A stretch of DNA of 16,713 bases from Desulfocapsa sp. (GTDB lineage Bacteria; Desulfobacterota; Desulfobulbia; Desulfobulbales; Desulfocapsaceae), in assembly GCA_030635405.1 (NCBI GenBank), contig DAOVZA010000007.1, positions 1 to 16,713 of the forward strand, written 5' to 3'. The position numbers and the translations under genes were made by a program. Under the pieces are notes generated by a model that was not told where the DNA came from, made no database searches, and saw nothing but the letters and a program-made list of their open reading frames with translations. Of this stretch, positions 33 through 15,065 are shown one piece after another. Positions within the stretch are counted from its first letter, which is position 1. The number at the start of each line of letters is the position of its first letter.

Positions 33-1622
33 ATGAACAATTTCCCCAAATTCCCCAAATATTTTCTTTCCATACTCCTACCCTGGGCTATTGCGCTGTT
101 TATTTTCTTTGCGTATTTTTATCTATCCCAGGCCGCAAAGTTAGATAGTCTCGTTCTTGAACGTGAACATCTCAATATTCGCATGGGCCAAAGGGCAATC
201 CATCAAGAATTCCAAACCGTTATGTCTGATGTTCTCTATCTTGCAAAACATAGTGTATTCCAAAATAATAAGCTGTTTCTCTCCACTGATGACCGACAGG
301 ACTTACAATCTGACTTCGTACGTTTTGCCGAAATTAAAGGAGTATACGATCAGGTCCGTTTTCTCGACGTTAAAGGACAGGAAGTTATCCGGGTCAATTA
401 TAGTCAGAGAAAGGCACATCCTGTGTCAAAAGACTTATTACAAAATAAAAGCAGCCGTTACTATTTTTATGAATCATTAAAAACAGATCGATCAATGGTC
501 TACGTTTCTCCTCTGGATCTCAATAAGGAGAATGGAGAAATAGAAAAACCCCATAAGCCAATGATTCGTTTTGGTACACCGGTGTTCAACGCTCAAGGTG
601 AAGAAATTGGAGTGCTCCTTCTAAATTATCTGGCTGAACGTCTACTGGATAATTTCTCGAATGCAGTGGCAAATATCGATGACCACATATCAATTGTAAA
701 TGACGAAGGATACTGGCTTAAACATCCTCAACCAGACAAGGAATGGGGGTTTATGTTTAACAAGACGAACAATAATATTAAATCTTCACACCCTGCAGAA
801 TGGGAAAAAATTCTTGCCGAAGAATCTGGCCAGTTCAGGAACAAAGAAGGGATATTTACCTTTACAACAATTCACCTTTTCCAGGCGCTGCAACTGAATA
901 CTGAGCTGGGAACAACAGAGAAACAATATTCAACAGAAAACGAATACAGTTGGAAAGCTGTTTCTCATATAACTTCCAATATGATAAAAACTGAGAGTAA
1001 ATCAAGACTGATGACTCTCGTAAATATTATCACTCCTGTTTTTCTACTGGTAATGCTGTTCAGCTGGAGACTTGCTCGTGCCAGAATCAAAAGTGAAGAG
1101 GATGAAAATTTACTCAAGCACCAGGCCACCATCGACACGTTAACAAACTTACCCAATCGACACCTTTTTAATGATCGCTTGTCTCGCTGTCTGCTGCACA
1201 GCAACCGATTGAAGAGCCAGTTTGCCCTGCTTTTTATTGATCTTGATAGATTTAAAAAGGTTAATGACACTCTGGGTCATGCTGCAGGAGATCAACTACT
1301 TCAGCAAGTCGCTGACAGACTACAACAAATCATACGAGAATCTGACACGGTCGCTCGTATTGGCGGTGACGAATTCACTATTATTCTTAATGCGATATCT
1401 AAGAGTAGTGATGTGGTCAGAGTCGCCCAGCTTATTGTCGAAATTCTTTCAGAACCATTCTTCCTCAACGAAGAACAGGCCAATATTGGTGCAAGTGTCG
1501 GCATTGCAATCTACCCGCAGGACGCTACAGAAATAACCAACTTGATGCAGAATGCCGATACTGCAATGTACCAGGCCAAAGAGAACGGAAGAAATTGTTA
1601 TTGTTTTTTTGATACTTTATAG
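33..1622 (+). CDS. Membrane-anchored diguanylate cyclase (periplasmic sensor + GGDEF)
   Basis: The protein probably makes cyclic di-GMP from two GTP in response to a periplasmic signal. It has 529 residues: a first membrane segment at about 12-33, a large extracytoplasmic region at about 34-327 that looks like a Cache-type sensor, a second membrane segment at about 328-348, then a complete GGDEF domain. The signature GGDEF is intact at residues 444-448. An RESD motif at 435-438 lies exactly five residues before it, which matches the RxxD inhibitory I-site, so product feedback is expected. No EAL or HD-GYP domain follows. The start ATG has an AGGG four bases upstream, a short spacing. It is the first gene of a same-strand run with the PhnD-like lipoprotein and the histidine kinase, so it may be an output or co-sensor of that system. 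The cyclase call is secure from the motifs. The sensor class is only inferred from topology. Confidence 0.93.
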   Translation: MNNFPKFPKYFLSILLPWAIALFIFFAYFYLSQAAKLDSLVLEREHLNIRMGQRAIHQEFQTVMSDVLYLAKHSVFQNNKLFLSTDDRQDLQSDFVRFAEIKGVYDQVRFLDVKGQEVIRVNYSQRKAHPVSKDLLQNKSSRYYFYESLKTDRSMVYVSPLDLNKENGEIEKPHKPMIRFGTPVFNAQGEEIGVLLLNYLAERLLDNFSNAVANIDDHISIVNDEGYWLKHPQPDKEWGFMFNKTNNNIKSSHPAEWEKILAEESGQFRNKEGIFTFTTIHLFQALQLNTELGTTEKQYSTENEYSWKAVSHITSNMIKTESKSRLMTLVNIITPVFLLVMLFSWRLARARIKSEEDENLLKHQATIDTLTNLPNRHLFNDRLSRCLLHSNRLKSQFALLFIDLDRFKKVNDTLGHAAGDQLLQQVADRLQQIIRESDTVARIGGDEFTIILNAISKSSDVVRVAQLIVEILSEPFFLNEEQANIGASVGIAIYPQDATEITNLMQNADTAMYQAKENGRNCYCFFDTL

Positions 1623-1661
1623 AACAGCTCTATTAAAAAACATGTCCTAACACGAACAGTA

Positions 1662-2582
1662 ATGAAATATAATATCAAACGCTTCACAATACAGCTCTTT
1701 GGTGGCTTCTTTTTTTTAATTCTGTTTTCTGCCTGCCAGCAGGTAGAGCAAGACGATAAATATCCGACATTCAGTCGCGATTTCCCCGGCAATACCTCAG
1801 AATACACTTTCGGTATACACCCACTCCACAATCCACAACGCTTGTTTGAAGTTTTTGGTCCTCTAATTGACTACCTGTCTCATAATATTCCAGGTACTCA
1901 CTTTAAGCTTGAGGCCTCTCGTAACTACGAAACATTCGATCAAAAATTGTATTCACACAAGTTTCATTTTGCCCTCCCTAACCCGTTTCAGACGATTAAC
2001 GCCATAGATAAGGGATATTCAGTTTTCGCCAAAATGGGAGACGATCATAACTTTAGAGGAATAATACTTGTACGAAAAGATAATAATATAAAAGAAGTCA
2101 CAGATCTTAAGGGAAAGGCTGTGAGTTATCCTGCGCCAACAGCACTTGCAGCTACCATGATGCCCCAATACTACCTTCAATCTCATGGTGTGGATGTTAT
2201 TGACGATTTAGACAATAGATATGTCGGTTCGCAGGAATCTTCCATCATGAACGTGTATTTAGGCCAAACCATAGCAGGGGCCACATGGCCTCCTCCCTGG
2301 AATGCTTTTCGTAAAGAACGTCCTGAAGTTTCTGATCAACTCGAAGTAAAGTGGCAGACTGATTCATTACCCAATAACGGTCTTGTAGTATTACCTGATG
2401 TGGATCAGATAATAGTAAATCAGGTACAAGAGCTTCTTACACATCTCCATGAAACATCCGAAGGCTCAAAGATACTTAAAACGATGGAGCTATCTCGTTT
2501 TGAACCTGCGACAAATACTAGCTACGCTTCTGTCAGATCTTTTGTTGCTAAATTTTCAAAAGAAGTTCGTCCCTTAAACTGA
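1662..2582 (+). CDS. PhnD-like periplasmic solute-binding lipoprotein
   Basis: This 306-residue protein resembles the phosphate/phosphonate ABC-transporter binding-protein family (PhnD-like). It starts with a lipoprotein signal peptide whose lipobox LFSAC places the acylated cysteine at residue 25. The mature part contains the family's phrases: a mature start reading TFGIHPLHNPQRLFEVFGPL, a mid segment GIILVRKDNNIKEVTDLKGK, and a hinge region with NVYLGQTIAGATWPPPW. No permease or ATPase gene is nearby. Instead the gene is followed after 11 bases by a histidine kinase. In many bacteria such proteins act as periplasmic ligand sensors for a kinase rather than in uptake, and that role is inferred here. 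No strong ribosome-binding site precedes the ATG, so translation may depend on the upstream gene, which ends 39 bases before. The ligand cannot be told from the sequence and need not be a phosphonate. Confidence 0.85.
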   Translation: MKYNIKRFTIQLFGGFFFLILFSACQQVEQDDKYPTFSRDFPGNTSEYTFGIHPLHNPQRLFEVFGPLIDYLSHNIPGTHFKLEASRNYETFDQKLYSHKFHFALPNPFQTINAIDKGYSVFAKMGDDHNFRGIILVRKDNNIKEVTDLKGKAVSYPAPTALAATMMPQYYLQSHGVDVIDDLDNRYVGSQESSIMNVYLGQTIAGATWPPPWNAFRKERPEVSDQLEVKWQTDSLPNNGLVVLPDVDQIIVNQVQELLTHLHETSEGSKILKTMELSRFEPATNTSYASVRSFVAKFSKEVRPLN

Positions 2583-2593
2583 CACTCTTCATC

Positions 2594-4858
2594 ATGAAAA
2601 ATAAATTCTATCGCTTCTGGACAGCCTCTCTTTCGCGGCAACTTATGATAGGCATAGCTCTTGTCCATGCTGTTCTTATGTCTATCTTTGTCTTTGATCT
2701 TGTAGACAGAGAACAGGATTTTATGCTTAGCCAGAGTAGTGATGGGGCCATTGGTCTTGCGCACACTCTCGCAGCAAATGGCTCTTCATGGATACTGGCC
2801 AATGATTTTGTTGGTATCGAGGAAGTAATACAATCCCAAAATAGTTTCCCTGGATTAGTATACGCCATGTTTCTTGATATGAATGGCAAGGTGCTTGGAT
2901 TTACTGATCGTAATAAAGTTGGCCAATATATTGATGATCCGCTAAGTCTTCAGCTCCTCCATGCCAGCCCAACGAAACAAATCCTTATTGACACCTCCGA
3001 ACTTATCGATATTGCCGTACCAATAAATGTAAAGTCCCGCCAGGTAGGTTGGGCACGTATACGCCTCGATCGATCAGAAATCTCCAACAACCTCAAGATT
3101 GTTACCTTGAATGGTCTTACTTACACTGCTTTTGCCATCTCGATTGGGTTACTTTTTGCCTGGTTTATGGCAAAAAGAATGACCCATGACCTTCGTACTC
3201 TGGAAAAAAAGGCCAATCAGGTCTCCAAGGGGAAAACTGATATTAATTTTAAGCTCGAAAGAGCTGACGAGATAGGAAAACTTTCCATTCATTTTGACAA
3301 TATGGTGAAAAAACGGGAAAACCTATTGTCAAGAACCCATCAAAAGTTAGTTCTTAGTGAAGAACGTCTACAGCTTGCACTAGATGGCTCTAATGACGGC
3401 CTGTGGGATTGGAACATGAAGACCAATGATGTCTATTTCTCTCCCCGTTGGAAAAATATGCTTGGCTACGAAGACCATGAATTACAAAATAACTTTAAGA
3501 CGTGGGAGGACAATCTCCACCCAGAAGATAAGTCGAGGGCTTACGATGAGGTGATGGCCGTTGTTAATGGTTCGAAACCATCTCTTGAAACAATTTACAG
3601 GTTAAAACACAAAGATGGCAGCTATCGTTGGATCCTGGATCGCGGTAAAATTGTATCAGATAATAATGGCTCTGCGACTCGAATGGTTGGTACACATGTT
3701 GATATAACAAAACGCATAACTGCTGAAATTGAGTTGCAGGAAAGCAAAGACCAGTGGATGGAAACCTTTGATGCCTTAACCGATATCATCACCATTCAGG
3801 ACAAGGATATGAATATTATCCGAGCCAATAAAGCTGCATATGAGTTCTTTGATGAAAAACCGGGAAGTCTCCTTGGTAAATCGTGTTTTCATGTTTTACG
3901 AGGTAATACAGAGCCATGTATCGGCTGTCCACTCTCTAACACCATGCTTGACACTAAAAGTCATACAGAAATTATCCACCACCAGCACTTGTATAAAACT
4001 TTTATGGTCTCCTCTTCAGCTATTCTTGATAAGCAGGGAAATATTCAACATTTAGTGCATATTGCAAAGGACATTACCGAGCACAGGGAACAGGAGCAAC
4101 AGCTCTTAAAAATGAGCGTTGATAACGAGCAGTTAAAACACATCGAAAGCCTGCAAACCATGGCTGGAGCGATAGCTCACCGTTTTAATAACGCAATGAC
4201 TGCGGTACGCGGCAATCTGGATCTCATAACATTCTCTTTGAGTAAAAGTTCCAATGAATATCAGATGGCAGTCGATGCTGCGAATGCTGCTAAAGGAGCA
4301 TCTCGGGTGGGTACATTGTTGCTGAGTTACGTTGGACAGCAATCTTTTAAACTTGAGGAAACAGTTTTCTCAAAACTGGTCAAAGAAATAACAGTTACCC
4401 TCGGAAAACAGTGGCGAAATACAGTTTCACTTCAATTCACGGCACCAGATCAACCGCTCACCTGTATGATAGATGGAGAACATATAAAAGAGGTCATTGA
4501 AAATATACTTGTTAATGCTGTTGAGTCTCTTGAAGAAAACGAAGGAACAATTGAGATAACGCTTGGTTCTGAATACTTGTCAGCAGACGTGTTTCCTATA
4601 TCATTTCAGAATGATACTCTTAAGGATCGCGAATACTTATTTTGCCAGATAAAAGATACAGGACATGGCATTACACCTGAAGATATGCCACGAATTTTTG
4701 AACCTTTCTATACAACCAGATTTGTTGGACGAGGACTTGGTCTCGCCATGACCGTAGGGATTATGCGTACACATAACGGGGCGATTACTGTTGAGAGTAT
4801 TCCCGGTGACGGTACCACTGTAAGAGTAATTTTACCGGCTATGAATTCGGCATTTTAG
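2594..4858 (+). CDS. Membrane sensor histidine kinase with HAMP and two PAS domains
   Basis: A 754-residue histidine kinase. Domains in order: membrane segment at about 15-37, extracytoplasmic sensor at about 39-170, second membrane segment at about 173-192, HAMP at about 193-250, PAS-PAC at about 255-375, second PAS at about 380-495, a short coiled region, the phosphoacceptor helix with His529 in the motif AHRFNN, then the ATPase domain. The ATPase boxes are intact: N box with ENILVNAVESL from residue 636, G1 DTGHGI from 688, F box FEPFYTT, and G2 GRGLGLA from 712. There is no receiver domain, so a separate response regulator is required, and none lies in this window. The second PAS carries Cys431 and a Cys442-x-x-Cys445 pair, as in a common PAS subtype that may bind metal or sense redox state. 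The gene lies 11 bases after the PhnD-like lipoprotein, its likely periplasmic partner. No clear Shine-Dalgarno sequence precedes the start. Confidence 0.93.
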   Translation: MKNKFYRFWTASLSRQLMIGIALVHAVLMSIFVFDLVDREQDFMLSQSSDGAIGLAHTLAANGSSWILANDFVGIEEVIQSQNSFPGLVYAMFLDMNGKVLGFTDRNKVGQYIDDPLSLQLLHASPTKQILIDTSELIDIAVPINVKSRQVGWARIRLDRSEISNNLKIVTLNGLTYTAFAISIGLLFAWFMAKRMTHDLRTLEKKANQVSKGKTDINFKLERADEIGKLSIHFDNMVKKRENLLSRTHQKLVLSEERLQLALDGSNDGLWDWNMKTNDVYFSPRWKNMLGYEDHELQNNFKTWEDNLHPEDKSRAYDEVMAVVNGSKPSLETIYRLKHKDGSYRWILDRGKIVSDNNGSATRMVGTHVDITKRITAEIELQESKDQWMETFDALTDIITIQDKDMNIIRANKAAYEFFDEKPGSLLGKSCFHVLRGNTEPCIGCPLSNTMLDTKSHTEIIHHQHLYKTFMVSSSAILDKQGNIQHLVHIAKDITEHREQEQQLLKMSVDNEQLKHIESLQTMAGAIAHRFNNAMTAVRGNLDLITFSLSKSSNEYQMAVDAANAAKGASRVGTLLLSYVGQQSFKLEETVFSKLVKEITVTLGKQWRNTVSLQFTAPDQPLTCMIDGEHIKEVIENILVNAVESLEENEGTIEITLGSEYLSADVFPISFQNDTLKDREYLFCQIKDTGHGITPEDMPRIFEPFYTTRFVGRGLGLAMTVGIMRTHNGAITVESIPGDGTTVRVILPAMNSAF

Positions 4859-9320: not shown

Positions 9321-9611
9321 ATGAAAAAAACACTCTTCACCGCAGTAACCGTTACATCACTTGTACTCTGGAGTCTCTATGCGACAGCTGGCCCAAAAGA
9401 CGTTATAGATCGGGACTGTACAGCAGCAAAAGCCGGGAAAAATGTTGCCATGAAAGCTACGATTGGCGTTGGTGGCCCCTGTGGTCCAGCCGATGCAGCC
9501 AAGGATACAGCTAAAAATGCTGCTGGTATAGAGGATAAAAAAGACAAAAAGACAAACAAGAAAAAGGGTAAAAAGAAGGATGAAAAGAAACTCAAAAAAG
9601 CACTAAAATAG
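9321..9611 (+). CDS. Small secreted protein with lysine-rich tail
   Basis: A 96-residue protein. The signal peptide has a hydrophobic core at about 5-20 and a likely cleavage after ATA at residue 23. The mature part has two cysteines, in RDCTAAKAG and GGPCGPADA, which could form a disulfide in the periplasm. An alanine/lysine segment with near-repeats (AAKAGKNVAMKAT, AAKDTAKNAAG) follows. The last 30 residues are almost entirely lysine with some aspartate and glutamate, hence very basic and probably disordered. AAGGA lies nine bases before the ATG. The gene starts 98 bases after the preceding stop and ends 35 bases before the glutamate-receptor-like gene, so it may be cotranscribed with that gene. 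The basic tail could bind polyanions such as lipopolysaccharide, nucleic acid or a membrane surface, but this is conjecture. I recognise no family. Confidence 0.8.
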   Translation: MKKTLFTAVTVTSLVLWSLYATAGPKDVIDRDCTAAKAGKNVAMKATIGVGGPCGPADAAKDTAKNAAGIEDKKDKKTNKKKGKKKDEKKLKKALK

Positions 9612-9646
9612 AGTAAAGACTTTATTGTGCATCAAAGAGTAAGACT

Positions 9647-10765
9647 ATGACAAAGCAACACCTGGTTTCATTATACCGAGTTCTGTTTAGAGGGATAACT
9701 TTCCTTCTCCTGGCTATTTTTATCGTTCCTGCTTTCTGCTATGCAGCAGACAAAACTCCGATAATTGCCGTTCACGAATGTGAACCCTTTGTCATTAAGG
9801 ATAATACAAGTGAAAAAGGATATACCGGTTTAAGCATCTATCTTTTGGATGAAATCACCAAAAACAATCAGCTTGATTATCAACTAAAAGGGTATACCCT
9901 GAGTGGAATGCTTGACGCGGTAAAGAAGGGTGAGGCCTTCGGTGCCGTGTCCTGCATCTCAATTACACCAGAACGCGAAAAAATTTTTGATTTTACTCAT
10001 TCATTTTATGAAACACACCTTGCCATTGCCACCAGGAAAGCAGGCCCGTTGAGCTACATATTTGAGATTTTAACAAGTAAAAAATTCCTCCTCGTGTTGG
10101 CAATAATCTTTGGAATCTCTTCTATTATCTCAATTTTCCTATGGTTTTTTGAGCATAAAGTAAACTCCAAATTATATACAGCAAAACATACTGGTGGGAA
10201 AGTCATTGAGGCGCTTATCCCCGGCCTTCTTTGTGTTACTAAAGGTCCACCATCGTATCATAATATGCACACTATCCCAAGTCGTCTTCTTGTGGTCGTA
10301 GGTTCCATAGGAAGTACATTTATTGTTGCCAGTATAACAGCTTTAATTGCCTCGTCTCTTACCACCCAACAACTGGCATATAAAATCAACGGTCCTCAGG
10401 ATTTGCATAATACAAATGTCGGGGCTTTGCATGGTTCAACCTCGTCACGCTATCTTGACAAAATTGAAGTCAGATATGAAGAGTATGAATCAGTGGAATC
10501 AATGTTAGTTGATCTTGAAAATGAGAAAATCGATGCAATAGTTGAAGACAATCCAGTTTTGCAATATCTCATCAAGAAAGGTCAGATGGAAAATAGATTT
10601 TCAGAAATTGTTATCCTTCCAGCTGTATTTGAGAAACAGAACTACGGTATGATTCTTCCTGAGAATCATAAATTACGGGAAAGCCTGAACCAGACACTAC
10701 TCGAAGCACGACGTGATCCGAAATGGCAGGCTCTCCAGGATAAATATCTCAAACAGTTAAAGTAA
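9647..10765 (+). CDS. Prokaryotic ionotropic glutamate receptor-like protein (S1-TM-pore loop-TM-S2)
   Basis: A 372-residue protein with the layout of GluR0-type receptors. A signal peptide (about 1-33, ending FCYA) leads to the first half of a type-II periplasmic binding domain (S1, about 38-140). A membrane helix (147-168, ending LWFFEHK), a re-entrant pore-like region (about 185-210) and a second membrane helix (about 213-240) follow. The second binding lobe (S2, about 245-372) ends the protein. Arg110 in SITPERE matches the arginine that grips the ligand carboxylate. Gly263-Ser264-Thr265 and Asp301 in S2 match ligand-contact positions. The helix motif SITALIASSLT at 229-239 aligns position by position with the SYTANLAAFLT gate motif of animal receptors. 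The usual TVGYG filter is absent: the matching place reads TKGPPS (198-203). It is therefore either a channel with another selectivity or a non-conducting sensor. GAG lies seven bases before the ATG. Confidence 0.85.
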   Translation: MTKQHLVSLYRVLFRGITFLLLAIFIVPAFCYAADKTPIIAVHECEPFVIKDNTSEKGYTGLSIYLLDEITKNNQLDYQLKGYTLSGMLDAVKKGEAFGAVSCISITPEREKIFDFTHSFYETHLAIATRKAGPLSYIFEILTSKKFLLVLAIIFGISSIISIFLWFFEHKVNSKLYTAKHTGGKVIEALIPGLLCVTKGPPSYHNMHTIPSRLLVVVGSIGSTFIVASITALIASSLTTQQLAYKINGPQDLHNTNVGALHGSTSSRYLDKIEVRYEEYESVESMLVDLENEKIDAIVEDNPVLQYLIKKGQMENRFSEIVILPAVFEKQNYGMILPENHKLRESLNQTLLEARRDPKWQALQDKYLKQLK

Positions 10766-12029: not shown

Positions 12030-12512
12030 CTATTCAACGGGAATCGGAAGCTCTGTTTTATGGATAACCGTACTCAGAGTAAATGAAGAGTGAACACGCT
12101 GCACACCTGGCAGACTGGTTAGCTTCAAATGAATCTTTTTGTAATCATCATTATCTTTATAGATAATTCTCAGCATATAATCAGCGTCCCCCGACATCAG
12201 GTAGCACTCCATAACCTGCTCAATCCCAACGATTGCATTTTCAAAAGCCTGAAGTGTCACTTGCTGTTGCTCCTTAAGAGTAACACGGACAAATACTGTT
12301 CCTGAAAAACCGAGTACATTCTGGTTGAGTAGAAGAACAGATCGATCTACAATCCCACTTCTTTTGAGTGCTTTAACTCTTCTCAGACAAGCTGACTCAG
12401 ATAATCCTACTTTTTGAGCCAGTTGAACATTGGAAAGACTCACGTCATGCTGTAATGCGACAAGGATGGATCGATCAAGCTCATCAATCTGACTATTTGG
12501 TGTTTTCTGCAT
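12030..12512 (-). CDS. Lrp/AsnC family transcriptional regulator, probable regulator of ald
   Basis: A 160-residue Lrp/AsnC-type DNA-binding protein. The N-terminal winged helix-turn-helix is clear: IDELDRSILVALQHD, then NVQLAQKVGLSESACLRRVKALKRSGIV at about 28-55. The C-terminal RAM ligand-binding domain follows, with GFSGTVFVRVTL, VMECYLMSGDADYMLRI and GVQRVHSSFTLSTVIHKTELPI. Full length agrees with the family. AAGG lies six bases before the start. It is transcribed away from alanine dehydrogenase, whose start is 147 bases away. In several bacteria (for example AldR of mycobacteria) such a regulator activates ald in response to alanine. By that precedent it probably controls ald and itself, but the effector is not shown by the sequence. 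Confidence 0.93.
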   Translation of the reverse strand: MQKTPNSQIDELDRSILVALQHDVSLSNVQLAQKVGLSESACLRRVKALKRSGIVDRSVLLLNQNVLGFSGTVFVRVTLKEQQQVTLQAFENAIVGIEQVMECYLMSGDADYMLRIIYKDNDDYKKIHLKLTSLPGVQRVHSSFTLSTVIHKTELPIPVE

Positions 12513-12659: not shown

Positions 12660-13775
12660 ATGAAAATAGGAATCTTAAAAGAAATCAAAATTGAAGAAAG
12701 CAGGGTTTGTATGACTCCCGCTGGAACAGAGATTATGGTGCACAATGGTCATCAGGTTTTCGTAGAGAGAAATAGTGGTGCTGGCAGTGGATTCTCCGAT
12801 GCTGAATATATTGCCACAGGAGCTGAGATACTTGAGACAGCTGCAGAAGTATTCAAATCTTCTGATATGGTCATGCATGTTAAAGAGCCACAACCTGAAG
12901 AATATGAATTAATCAGGGAAGGGCAAATTGTATTTACCTATTTTCATTTTGCAGCATCAGAGGAACTAACACTGGCAATGATTGCCAGAAAGGCTGTTTG
13001 TATAGCCTATGAAACAATTCAGGACAGTGATGGCAGCTTACCCTTACTCACTCCCATGAGTGAAGTTGCTGGCAGAATGGCTACCCAGGAAGCTGCAAAA
13101 TATTTGGAACGCCCCCAAGGAGGACGTGGGATTCTTCTTGGTGGTGTTCCCGGAGTGGATCCCGGTACTGTTGTTGTTATCGGTGGTGGAGTGGTTGGCA
13201 CCAATGCTGCCCAGATGGCCTGCGGCCTTGGGGCAAAGGTTTATCTTCTCGACACCAGCTTACCAAGACTTCGCTACCTCTCTGAGGTAATGCCTAAAAA
13301 TTGTATCCCCATTATGTCATCTCCAGCCAAGCTTCGGGAACTCATTACCCAGGCAGATGCCGTTATTGGTGCTGTACTTCTTCATGGTGCCAAAGCTCCA
13401 AAACTCATTACAAGAGAAATGCTTGGCACAATGAAACCAGGAGCAGTGTTAGTCGATGTGGCTATTGATCAGGGAGGCTGCTTTGAAACCTCCAAAGCCA
13501 CCACTCACACCAACCCTGTCTATGAGGTTGATGGAATTATTCATTACTGCGTTGCCAATATGCCTGGTGCAGTTCCACTCACATCCACCATGGCACTAAC
13601 CAACGCCACTCTTCCATACGCTGTATCACTGGCTAATAAGGGATGGAAACGTTGCGCTCAGGAAAATCCGGCCATGAGGAAAGGACTCAACATTGTTGAG
13701 GGAAAGATACTGTATCGGGGTGTGGCTGAAGCTTTTGATATGGAGTATGTGCCTGTGGAAGAGGTACTCTCCTGA
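12660..13775 (+). CDS. ald: Alanine dehydrogenase
   Basis: Catalyses reversible NAD-dependent oxidative deamination of L-alanine to pyruvate and ammonium in the cytoplasm, usually as a hexamer. The 371-residue length matches the family. Arg15, Lys75 (in MHVKEP) and His96 (in YFHFA) fall at the known substrate and catalytic positions. The Rossmann motif VVVIGGGVVGTNAAQMA, preceded by GGVPGVDPG, binds NAD, and the following LLDTS supplies the ribose-binding aspartate. The conserved DVAIDQGGC segment with its catalytic aspartate is present. No change at a key residue was seen. The gene is divergent from the Lrp-type regulator. It converges with a phosphoribosyltransferase gene after four bases. 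It allows growth on alanine or assimilation of ammonium, depending on direction. Confidence 0.98.
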   Translation: MKIGILKEIKIEESRVCMTPAGTEIMVHNGHQVFVERNSGAGSGFSDAEYIATGAEILETAAEVFKSSDMVMHVKEPQPEEYELIREGQIVFTYFHFAASEELTLAMIARKAVCIAYETIQDSDGSLPLLTPMSEVAGRMATQEAAKYLERPQGGRGILLGGVPGVDPGTVVVIGGGVVGTNAAQMACGLGAKVYLLDTSLPRLRYLSEVMPKNCIPIMSSPAKLRELITQADAVIGAVLLHGAKAPKLITREMLGTMKPGAVLVDVAIDQGGCFETSKATTHTNPVYEVDGIIHYCVANMPGAVPLTSTMALTNATLPYAVSLANKGWKRCAQENPAMRKGLNIVEGKILYRGVAEAFDMEYVPVEEVLS

Positions 13776-13779
13776 AATA

Positions 13780-14346
13780 CTATTTCTTTACTAGATGATC
13801 CTTGAGAATTTCATAAATCGCAGGTCGTTTTGCCTGTATTTCCTCAACACTCAAGCCTTCCAGTGAATGAGGATATTTAAGCCAGGCTGTCGTTTCATGT
13901 ACTGTGTAATCCGGCGCTCTTCCTATCTGATTACGACTGGGCTTATAATAGGGAACAGCAATACGGATATCTTCCGGAGTATTCAGGCGTAACCTGCGAC
14001 CCAGTTCATTGATAATTGCTTCCACTGAGCGACCAGTATCAAATACGTCATCAACAATAAGCAGACTGTCACTGTGCTGCATATTTTTCACCAGATAATT
14101 CAGACCAAAAAGCTGAATTTCACGCGTCTGTTCATCAATTCCACTGTATGAAGAGGTTCTGATTGCTATATTATCGGACTGTATCCCATGAAAGGATAAA
14201 AACTCCTGAACAGCAATTCCGATTGGCACACCACCGCGCCAGACTGCAATAATGAATGTCGGCTTAAAGCCACTTTTAAGAATCTGTTGTGCCAGCTTAA
14301 AAGAATCTTCCAGTAAGCCCTGGGCAGTAAGGTATACTTTTTCCAT
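13780..14346 (-). CDS. Hypoxanthine-type phosphoribosyltransferase (paralog 1)
   Basis: A 188-residue type-I phosphoribosyltransferase. The PRPP-binding signature LLIVDDVFDTGRSVEAII is intact, and the upstream loop PTFIIAVWRGGVPIG matches the pyrophosphate-binding region. Enzymes of this class transfer the phosphoribosyl group of PRPP to a purine such as hypoxanthine, guanine or xanthine. The substrate here cannot be read from the sequence, and some family members act in other roles. An ATG five codons upstream is in frame, but AGGG lies six bases before the ATG at 14346, so this start is used. The gene converges with ald, with four bases between the stops, and is divergent from a clear paralog at 14487. 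The two share FKPTF/FRPTF, WRGG, SLL.VDDVF.TG and the D.T...TA/ED.W pattern. Confidence 0.9.
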   Translation of the reverse strand: MEKVYLTAQGLLEDSFKLAQQILKSGFKPTFIIAVWRGGVPIGIAVQEFLSFHGIQSDNIAIRTSSYSGIDEQTREIQLFGLNYLVKNMQHSDSLLIVDDVFDTGRSVEAIINELGRRLRLNTPEDIRIAVPYYKPSRNQIGRAPDYTVHETTAWLKYPHSLEGLSVEEIQAKRPAIYEILKDHLVKK

Positions 14347-14381
14347 TTTTAACCCTATCATTGTAGAAACGAGGTAAATTG

Positions 14382-14486: not shown

Positions 14487-15065
14487 ATGAAAAAAAGATT
14501 CCTTGATGAAGAAACCCTTATTTTAGATTCTTTCAAATTAGGGGTTAAAATTTTTGAAAGCAGTTTTCGTCCAACATTCATCGTAGGGATTTGGCGAGGC
14601 GGTAGCTCAGTTGGTATCTATGTCCAGGAATGCCTCCAGACACTTGGAGTAGAAACCAACCATATCTCACTGCGAACATCCTATCGCGGCGAGCCCTCTT
14701 ATCAGGAAATGGTGGCCTCTGCTGATGCTGAAATCAGGGTTCATGGCACACAGTATTTACTTGAGAACCTGAATGCTGATGATTCTCTGTTACTGGTCGA
14801 CGATGTCTTCAGTACCGGGAAAAGTGTGGATGCTGTCATCAAACGACTCAGTCGTCATCTCAAAAGAAACATGCCCAAACAGATCAAGATTGCGACATTA
14901 TGGCAACGCCCTTCCTATAAAGAAACTGAAATAGAACCGGACTTCACACTCTATAAATCAGAAGACTGGCTGGTGTTCCCCTATGAGATGAGCGGGTTAA
15001 CAATGGATGAAATTGAAGAGCATAAACCCTTCCTTGTTCCATACCTCAAAGGATGTAGCCTCTAA
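14487..15065 (+). CDS. Hypoxanthine-type phosphoribosyltransferase (paralog 2)
   Basis: A 192-residue type-I phosphoribosyltransferase, evidently duplicated from or related to the one at 13780-14346. Its PRPP motif is LLLVDDVFSTGKSVDAVI and its N-terminal loop is PTFIVGIWRGGSSVG. It differs from paralog 1 by an insertion around residues 68-76 (EPSYQEMVASADAE, in the flexible loop following RTSY) and by VWRGGVP changing to IWRGGSS. The flexible loop closes over the substrate in this family, so substrate preference may differ. No Shine-Dalgarno sequence precedes the ATG within 15 bases. It is divergent from paralog 1 across 140 bases and converges with the coiled-coil gene that ends at 15099. 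Confidence 0.9.
   Translation: MKKRFLDEETLILDSFKLGVKIFESSFRPTFIVGIWRGGSSVGIYVQECLQTLGVETNHISLRTSYRGEPSYQEMVASADAEIRVHGTQYLLENLNADDSLLLVDDVFSTGKSVDAVIKRLSRHLKRNMPKQIKIATLWQRPSYKETEIEPDFTLYKSEDWLVFPYEMSGLTMDEIEEHKPFLVPYLKGCSL

Follow-up and report, generated by a model that had tools for sequence, protein, structure and literature searches.

A conserved basic Gly-Pro loop at the filter position in a bacterial clade of ionotropic glutamate receptor-type proteins

Results

A 16,713-nucleotide stretch of a Desulfocapsa sp. contig (GenBank assembly GCA_030635405.1, contig DAOVZA010000007.1), analysed at its full length and referred to here as the window, carries an open reading frame (ORF) at 9647–10765 of the forward strand that starts with ATG and encodes a 372-residue subunit of the ionotropic glutamate receptor (iGluR) type (P0001). 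The assignment draws on the ORF, Pfam, AlphaFold2 and Foldseek, and all features of the gene given below lie on the same strand. In the AlphaFold2 model (predicted local distance difference test score, pLDDT, 90.4), a signal is followed by the S1 half of the ligand-binding domain (approximately residues 36–133; 9752–10045), membrane helix M1 (residues 145–169; 10079–10153), a re-entrant pore helix (residues 182–198; 10190–10240) with its loop, membrane helix M2 (residues 210–241; 10274–10369), which corresponds to M3 of animal iGluRs, and the S2 half (approximately residues 245–370; 10379–10756, delimited by Pfam and structural alignment). Pfam, AlphaFold2, Foldseek and VIA-align thus place S1 and S2 on either side of two membrane helices and a pore loop, which is the domain order that the original prediction had read from the sequence, including the re-entrant segment between the helices. 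M4, the third full membrane helix of animal-type iGluRs, is absent, with S2 running almost to the C-terminus at residue 372. Hydrophobicity at the N-terminus, together with a model helix at residues 3–25, predicts a signal sequence of about residues 1–33 (9647–9745).

The family assignment is supported at several levels. The Pfam model SBP_bac_3 spans S1 and S2 (8.1e-18), and Lig_chan-Glu_bd, the iGluR S1 model, matches at 1.1e-9. Lig_chan scores under its cut-off on the window protein (5.9e-6; 26.6 vs 30.8 bits), and the cut-off is passed by P0019, a Photobacterium relative that is 43% identical to it (35.0 bits). Among the Foldseek matches listed against the PDB, all 50 are iGluRs. The nearest named relative, from a Desulfocapsa metagenome-assembled genome (MAG), is 72% identical. 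Against the closest named relative L001, the ratio of nonsynonymous to synonymous substitution rates (dN/dS) of the whole gene is 0.097 at a dS of 1.63, near saturation. Over ten pairs the whole-gene ratio does not exceed 0.143 (dS being saturated in two), with a maximum of 0.193 for the short pore stretch. As judged from these substitution rates, the gene is evolving under purifying selection. The ORF encodes a real and functional-looking iGluR-type subunit of a conserved clade lacking the potassium filter, and the observed feature is far beyond chance.

The position at which a TVGYG filter would be expected reads TKGPPS (residues 198–203), as originally noted, and the TVGYG-like K+ filter of GluR0-type (Group 1) receptors is absent. 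The full filter-position loop, TKGPPSY, covers residues 198–204 (10238–10258). A protein search returned 81 matches, among which P0002–P0072 carry the same loop type, with Gly200 and Pro201 in 71/71 and Lys or Arg199 in 69/71; the first differing loops are those of P0073 (TVGYGD) and P0074 (another type). This loop type is termed TxGP. A genome scan yielded 71 named loci, distributed over Desulfocapsa, Desulfosarcina, Desulfosediminicola, Desulfogranum, Photobacterium, Vibrio, Aliivibrio, Moritella, Ferrimonas and MAGs labelled Alphaproteobacteria and Shewanellaceae. When 70 named loci were aligned (L071 being left out), Pro201 was present in all 70, Gly200 in 68 (Trp in two) and Lys or Arg199 in 66; L002, L020, L023 and L066 have Ser or Thr at position 199. 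For a non-redundant set, a limit of 90% identity left 79 of 144 rows, with L068 and L071 removed beforehand and rows with more than 40 gaps excluded. Pro201 and Arg213 are found in all 79 of these members, Thr198 and Tyr204 in 78, Gly200 in 77 and Lys or Arg199 in 73. The mean entropy of residues 197–204 is 0.62 bits, vs 1.54 bits for residues 36–370, and this segment ranks 24th of 328 windows by conservation. Because the genome-scan patterns contained part of the loop, the calculation was repeated on the 54 homolog-search rows alone, in which the rank is 22 of 328. The most conserved windows of the protein lie in S1, around residues 115–129. On these alignments, the TKGPPSY loop is not a product of decay; it is a conserved signature, T-[K/R]-G-P-x-x-Y, of one clade. 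The homolog search proposed in the original prediction thus returned a loop that is far from random.

Positions 199 and 203 appear to be paired. All five non-redundant members with Ser or Thr199 have Arg203, and those with Lys or Arg199 have Asn, Ser or Ala203, bar one with Arg; P0017 (Gln/Ser) breaks the pairing. Those Ser/Thr rows that were included in the tree form one sub-branch, so this charge compensation may be a single event. Separately, L083, in the same genome as L067 (G005), shows adjacent tandem TxGP paralogs, both with the loop TKGPFNYY.

To place the loop relative to known filters, alignments and a control model were compared. No gaps are needed to align TVGYG relatives with the TxGP clade from the pore helix to M2. 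KcsA likewise aligns gap-free over 50 residues (E 3.5e-5) with a profile made from ten TxGP fragments and one TVGYG fragment, so that pore helix, loop and inner helix match those of KcsA and other P-loop K+ channels. In KcsA numbering, K199 falls on T75, G200 on V76 and P201 on G77. In the control model of the TVGYG relative P0073 (pLDDT 84.6; predicted template modelling score 0.62; built from 39 aligned rows, six of them TxGP), the pore helix spans residues 177–194 and the filter Thr precedes M2 by 11 residues and a conserved Arg by 14, a spacing identical to that of K199. If the register is set by the end of the pore helix instead, T198 rather than K199 would match this Thr, and a single-sequence alignment to GluN2B gives a different, gapped register. 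On the basis of the gap-free alignments and the P0073 spacing, Lys199 is placed at the first filter position, the equivalent of the animal Q/R site, with a margin of about one residue. In the ungapped register the filter glycines of KcsA are replaced in all 79 members, G77 by Pro and G79 by Asn (58), Ser (14), Arg (6) or Ala (1). None of these 79 members has an acidic residue within 198–205, whereas an acid occurs at the matching level in 29/29 TVGYG rows and 8/19 other tree rows. Many iGluRs have an acidic residue about four positions past the Q/R site, with an equivalent Asp in GluR0 (PMC12226733).

The clade was also recovered independently of the loop. From 95 collected rows, 16 were dropped, mostly plain K+ channels and fragments of fewer than 280 residues; eukaryotic rows were absent and the tree is unrooted. 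In a tree built without the loop columns, the 31 TxGP rows fall on one side of a branch with a support of 100/100, opposite 29 TVGYG and 19 other rows, and every one of 200 bootstrap trees shows this branch. The 19 other rows do not form a single group. The tree requires five changes among three loop types, and for the TVGYG label three or more are unavoidable given its well-supported branches. Loops have thus switched type several times.

The ligand side is conserved as well. Arg110 (9974–9976) is present in 78 of the 79 non-redundant members, Asp301 (10547–10549) in all 79, and Thr107 and Thr265 in 77 each. Within the Gly-Ser-Thr segment (residues 263–265; 10433–10441), position 263 is a variable pocket position (entropy 2.7), position 264 is Ser or Thr in 79/79 and position 265 is Thr in 77/79. 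The ligand clamp described in the original prediction is therefore found where it was said to lie and is shared across the clade. The gate motif SITALIASSLT (residues 229–239; 10331–10363) is likewise as described, with six of eleven positions identical to the comparison motif SYTANLAAFLT. By analogy with GluR0, Arg110 would bind the ligand α-carboxylate and Asp301 the α-amino group (PMC2950845). From the conservation of Arg110, Asp301, Thr107 and Thr265, the ligand is likely an amino acid.

Two cysteines further set the clade apart. Cys45 (9779–9781) occurs in 75/79 non-redundant members (the remainder being two gaps, one Phe and one Met) and Cys103 (9953–9955) in 79/79. Among the tree rows, they occur in 28/31 and 31/31 TxGP rows, respectively, and both in 0/48 rows outside the clade. 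In the AlphaFold2 model, the two residues lie just beyond the ends of S1 strands 39–42 and 99–101, which makes a putative Cys45–Cys103 disulfide beside the ligand pocket plausible.

The distribution of these genes was surveyed at two levels. A profile termed A1, which includes two non-TxGP rows, gave one match at E <1e-60 in 65/150 sampled genomes of the P. profundum family (Vibrionaceae), a count of profile matches rather than of loop readings. Pfam Lig_chan, a model that does not depend on the TxGP loop, scored above its cut-off in 19/395 sampled genomes of the phylum of L051 (Desulfosediminicola) and 22/398 of the phylum of P. profundum, TVGYG types included, with 30 loci listed from each survey. 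An ORF over the threshold was obtained for 38/40 of loci L072–L111 (none for L101 and L106) and 29/29 of L112–L140. At least five further non-TVGYG loop classes were seen in iGluR-like proteins of the two phyla: SG[VT]C[FL]G-type (L093, L098, L099 and L104, with relatives in L097), AAGSSSHKRL (L103, L107, L109), NGGFEER (L123, L125, L128), QADQ (L112, L113) and TQAGAAQN (L121). When ten TxGP-bearing genomes were searched with Lig_chan at E 0.01, four had no second match and six had two to six, some of them weak. A compulsory partner or heteromer is thus unsupported, and homotetramers are likely in the four genomes with a single match.

Related proteins also occur in viral collections. Six IMG/VR contigs of 40–395 kb (L141–L146) encode GluR0-type proteins, those of L143 and L146 being identical, with the filter TVGYG or TTGYG at five loci and TVGLG at L141. 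Among viral proteins, the 514-residue BFVD entry E3T502 of Cafeteria roenbergensis virus, with the database name 'putative ABC-type amino acid transporter', ranks as the best structural match to the model (E 2.7e-25). It is likely that natural viral ligand-gated K+ channels exist.

A conserved gene neighbourhood was sought by clustering the ORFs around the 71 named loci and the window, with the 25 largest clusters listed and neighbours read for 14 of 72 sources and L001. Synteny is shared within genera, mainly Photobacterium; across genera, only genes that by eye resemble generic sensor, LysR, chemotaxis-type and HU-like genes were seen, at varying places. In the window, the receptor start codon is preceded by a Shine-Dalgarno-like AAAGAG (9634–9639), inferred from the sequence and situated 7 nt 5' of it. 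Upstream on the same strand, 9321–9611 encodes a small secreted Lys-rich protein with no Pfam match. Its stop codon is 35 nt away from the start of the receptor gene; in L001 a relative is likewise found upstream of the receptor, there with an HU-like gene in between. Close to the receptor are two amino-acid-related genes, an Lrp/AsnC-type regulator (12033–12512, reverse strand) divergent from an alanine dehydrogenase (12660–13772, forward strand). Two divergent phosphoribosyltransferase-domain genes (13783–14361, reverse strand; 14487–15062, forward strand) are paralog-like. At 33–4855 of the forward strand, a GGDEF sensor protein, a phosphonate-type binding protein and a PAS/HATPase kinase look like a signalling operon.

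Discussion

The topology class to which the window protein belongs is already known. GluR0 from Synechocystis is a K+-selective prokaryotic iGluR with a filter of the K+-channel type, and in 2010 Ger et al. described a Group 2 of ten prokaryotic iGluRs without a K+ filter, including YP_204476 and YP_132561, in whose P regions they recognised no selectivity (PMC2950845). NpGluR0 of Nostoc is a further prokaryotic iGluR. All iGluR pores are inverted in the membrane relative to K+ channels (PMC2950845). The window protein differs from GluR0 in its TKGPPSY loop, with a basic residue and no acid nearby, and in its Cys45/Cys103 pair, and it resembles Group 2, as described by Ger et al., in topology, non-K+ P region and conserved Arg and Asp. 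The genomes of A. fischeri and P. profundum hold TxGP genes (L027 and L012, respectively). Since YP_204476 and YP_132561 come from these two species, Vibrio (Aliivibrio) fischeri and Photobacterium profundum, both proteins are probably TxGP members. Neither the motif nor the clade is described in the text of PMC2950845 covered here. Within the literature searched, the TxGP clade, the signature T-[K/R]-G-P-x-x-Y, its position on or beside the Q/R site, the loss of the acid and the Cys pair were not found and look undescribed. The original prediction had missed the clade signature, the Lys at or near the Q/R site, the further non-K+ loop classes and the non-K+ receptors of 2010 (PMC2950845).

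The window protein probably forms, as the only subunit, a homotetrameric channel of the iGluR/P-loop superfamily that faces the periplasm, is gated by an amino acid, lacks K+ selectivity and resembles GluA2(R). In such a channel, an amino acid would shut the S1/S2 clamp through Arg110 and Asp301 and draw M2 open. The pore would bear a ring of four Lys or Arg residues at about the height of the Q/R site, without an acidic neighbour, which is why it is not expected to select K+. The functional proposal follows the analogy with GluA2(R), whose basic residue lies at the same pore level to within one residue and which is, like the probable TxGP assembly, a homotetramer; here, in addition, the acid is lost. 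The GluA2 loop, QQGCD, contains no Pro. In GluA2, unlike the window protein, the acid at +4 is retained (PMC12226733). Additional domains and an M4 helix further distinguish GluA2, whose Arg arises by RNA editing. Homomers of GluA2(R), with Arg at each Q/R site, have a conductance of ~300 fS and a chloride to cesium permeability ratio (P_Cl/P_Cs) of 0.14 without auxiliary subunits, and with gamma-2 their Cl- flux is negligible (PMC6754398). Behaviour like that of such homomers would mean low conductance, weak divalent permeability and some chloride permeability. Periplasmic amino acids would then elicit a small depolarising or chloride current instead of the K+ current of GluR0.

Of the three readings left by the original prediction, the channel of different selectivity fits best, and the non-conducting amino-acid sensor stays as a rather unlikely but serious alternative. 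In the sensor, the helices would move while a Pro-containing basic loop seals the pore, and the output would pass to a partner protein. Two properties of the loop favour the sensor over a conducting channel: both K+-filter glycines, G77 and G79, are replaced, and a four-fold ring of Lys or Arg hinders the passage of cations. However, the gate motif and pore helix are retained, and GluA2(R) homomers still conduct (PMC6754398). The model also has no cytoplasmic effector domain, the cytosolic parts being short loops, and no receptor-specific neighbour family common across genera appears among the 25 largest clusters listed.

A more specific form of the channel hypothesis takes the TxGP proteins for a natural family of anion-permeable channels, gated by amino acids and sharing the potassium-channel P-loop fold; this is doubtful. 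If true, the Lys/Arg ring, the invariant Pro and the missing acid would together invert the usual charge of the filter. To our knowledge, no natural anion-selective P-loop channel is known, a point for which the literature was not searched.

The third of the original readings, an evolutionary intermediate between K+-selective GluR0-type and animal-type pores, is very improbable. It would agree with the absence of TVGYG and with the report that the yield of human iGluRs is higher for the non-K+ Group 2 than for Group 1 (PMC2950845). The TxGP proteins, however, form a separate clade with their own loop, whose Gly-Pro and basic residue are unlike animal loops such as the QQG of GluA2 and the NNS of GluN2B. 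Animal iGluRs reach higher scores with a profile of 33 TVGYG and 6 TxGP rows (GluD1, 127.9 bits) than with one of 50 TxGP and 2 other rows (109.1 bits), neither profile being pure. Finally, an ordinary amino-acid-binding protein of an ABC transporter with a membrane anchor, as suggested by the database name 'transporter substrate-binding domain-containing protein', the SBP_bac_3 and GlnH similarity and a ligand domain that structurally ties with glutamine-binding proteins, is hardly credible given that M1, the pore helix and M2 split S1 from S2 in the predicted topology, that the whole-chain Foldseek matches listed are iGluRs, that P0019 passes the Lig_chan cut-off, and that ABC permease or ATPase families were found in 0/17 other window ORFs scanned, 6/17 of them without any Pfam match.

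The usual view of prokaryotic iGluRs is of GluR0-like K+ channels from which animal cation channels were later derived. The conserved, charge-inverted filter of this widespread clade shows that bacteria tried other pore solutions on the same gated scaffold. The TxGP proteins offer a compact and probably homomeric test of a basic Q/R-like site, and since genetically tractable marine bacteria, Aliivibrio fischeri (L027) among them, carry such genes, both their conductance and their physiological role should be open to experiment.
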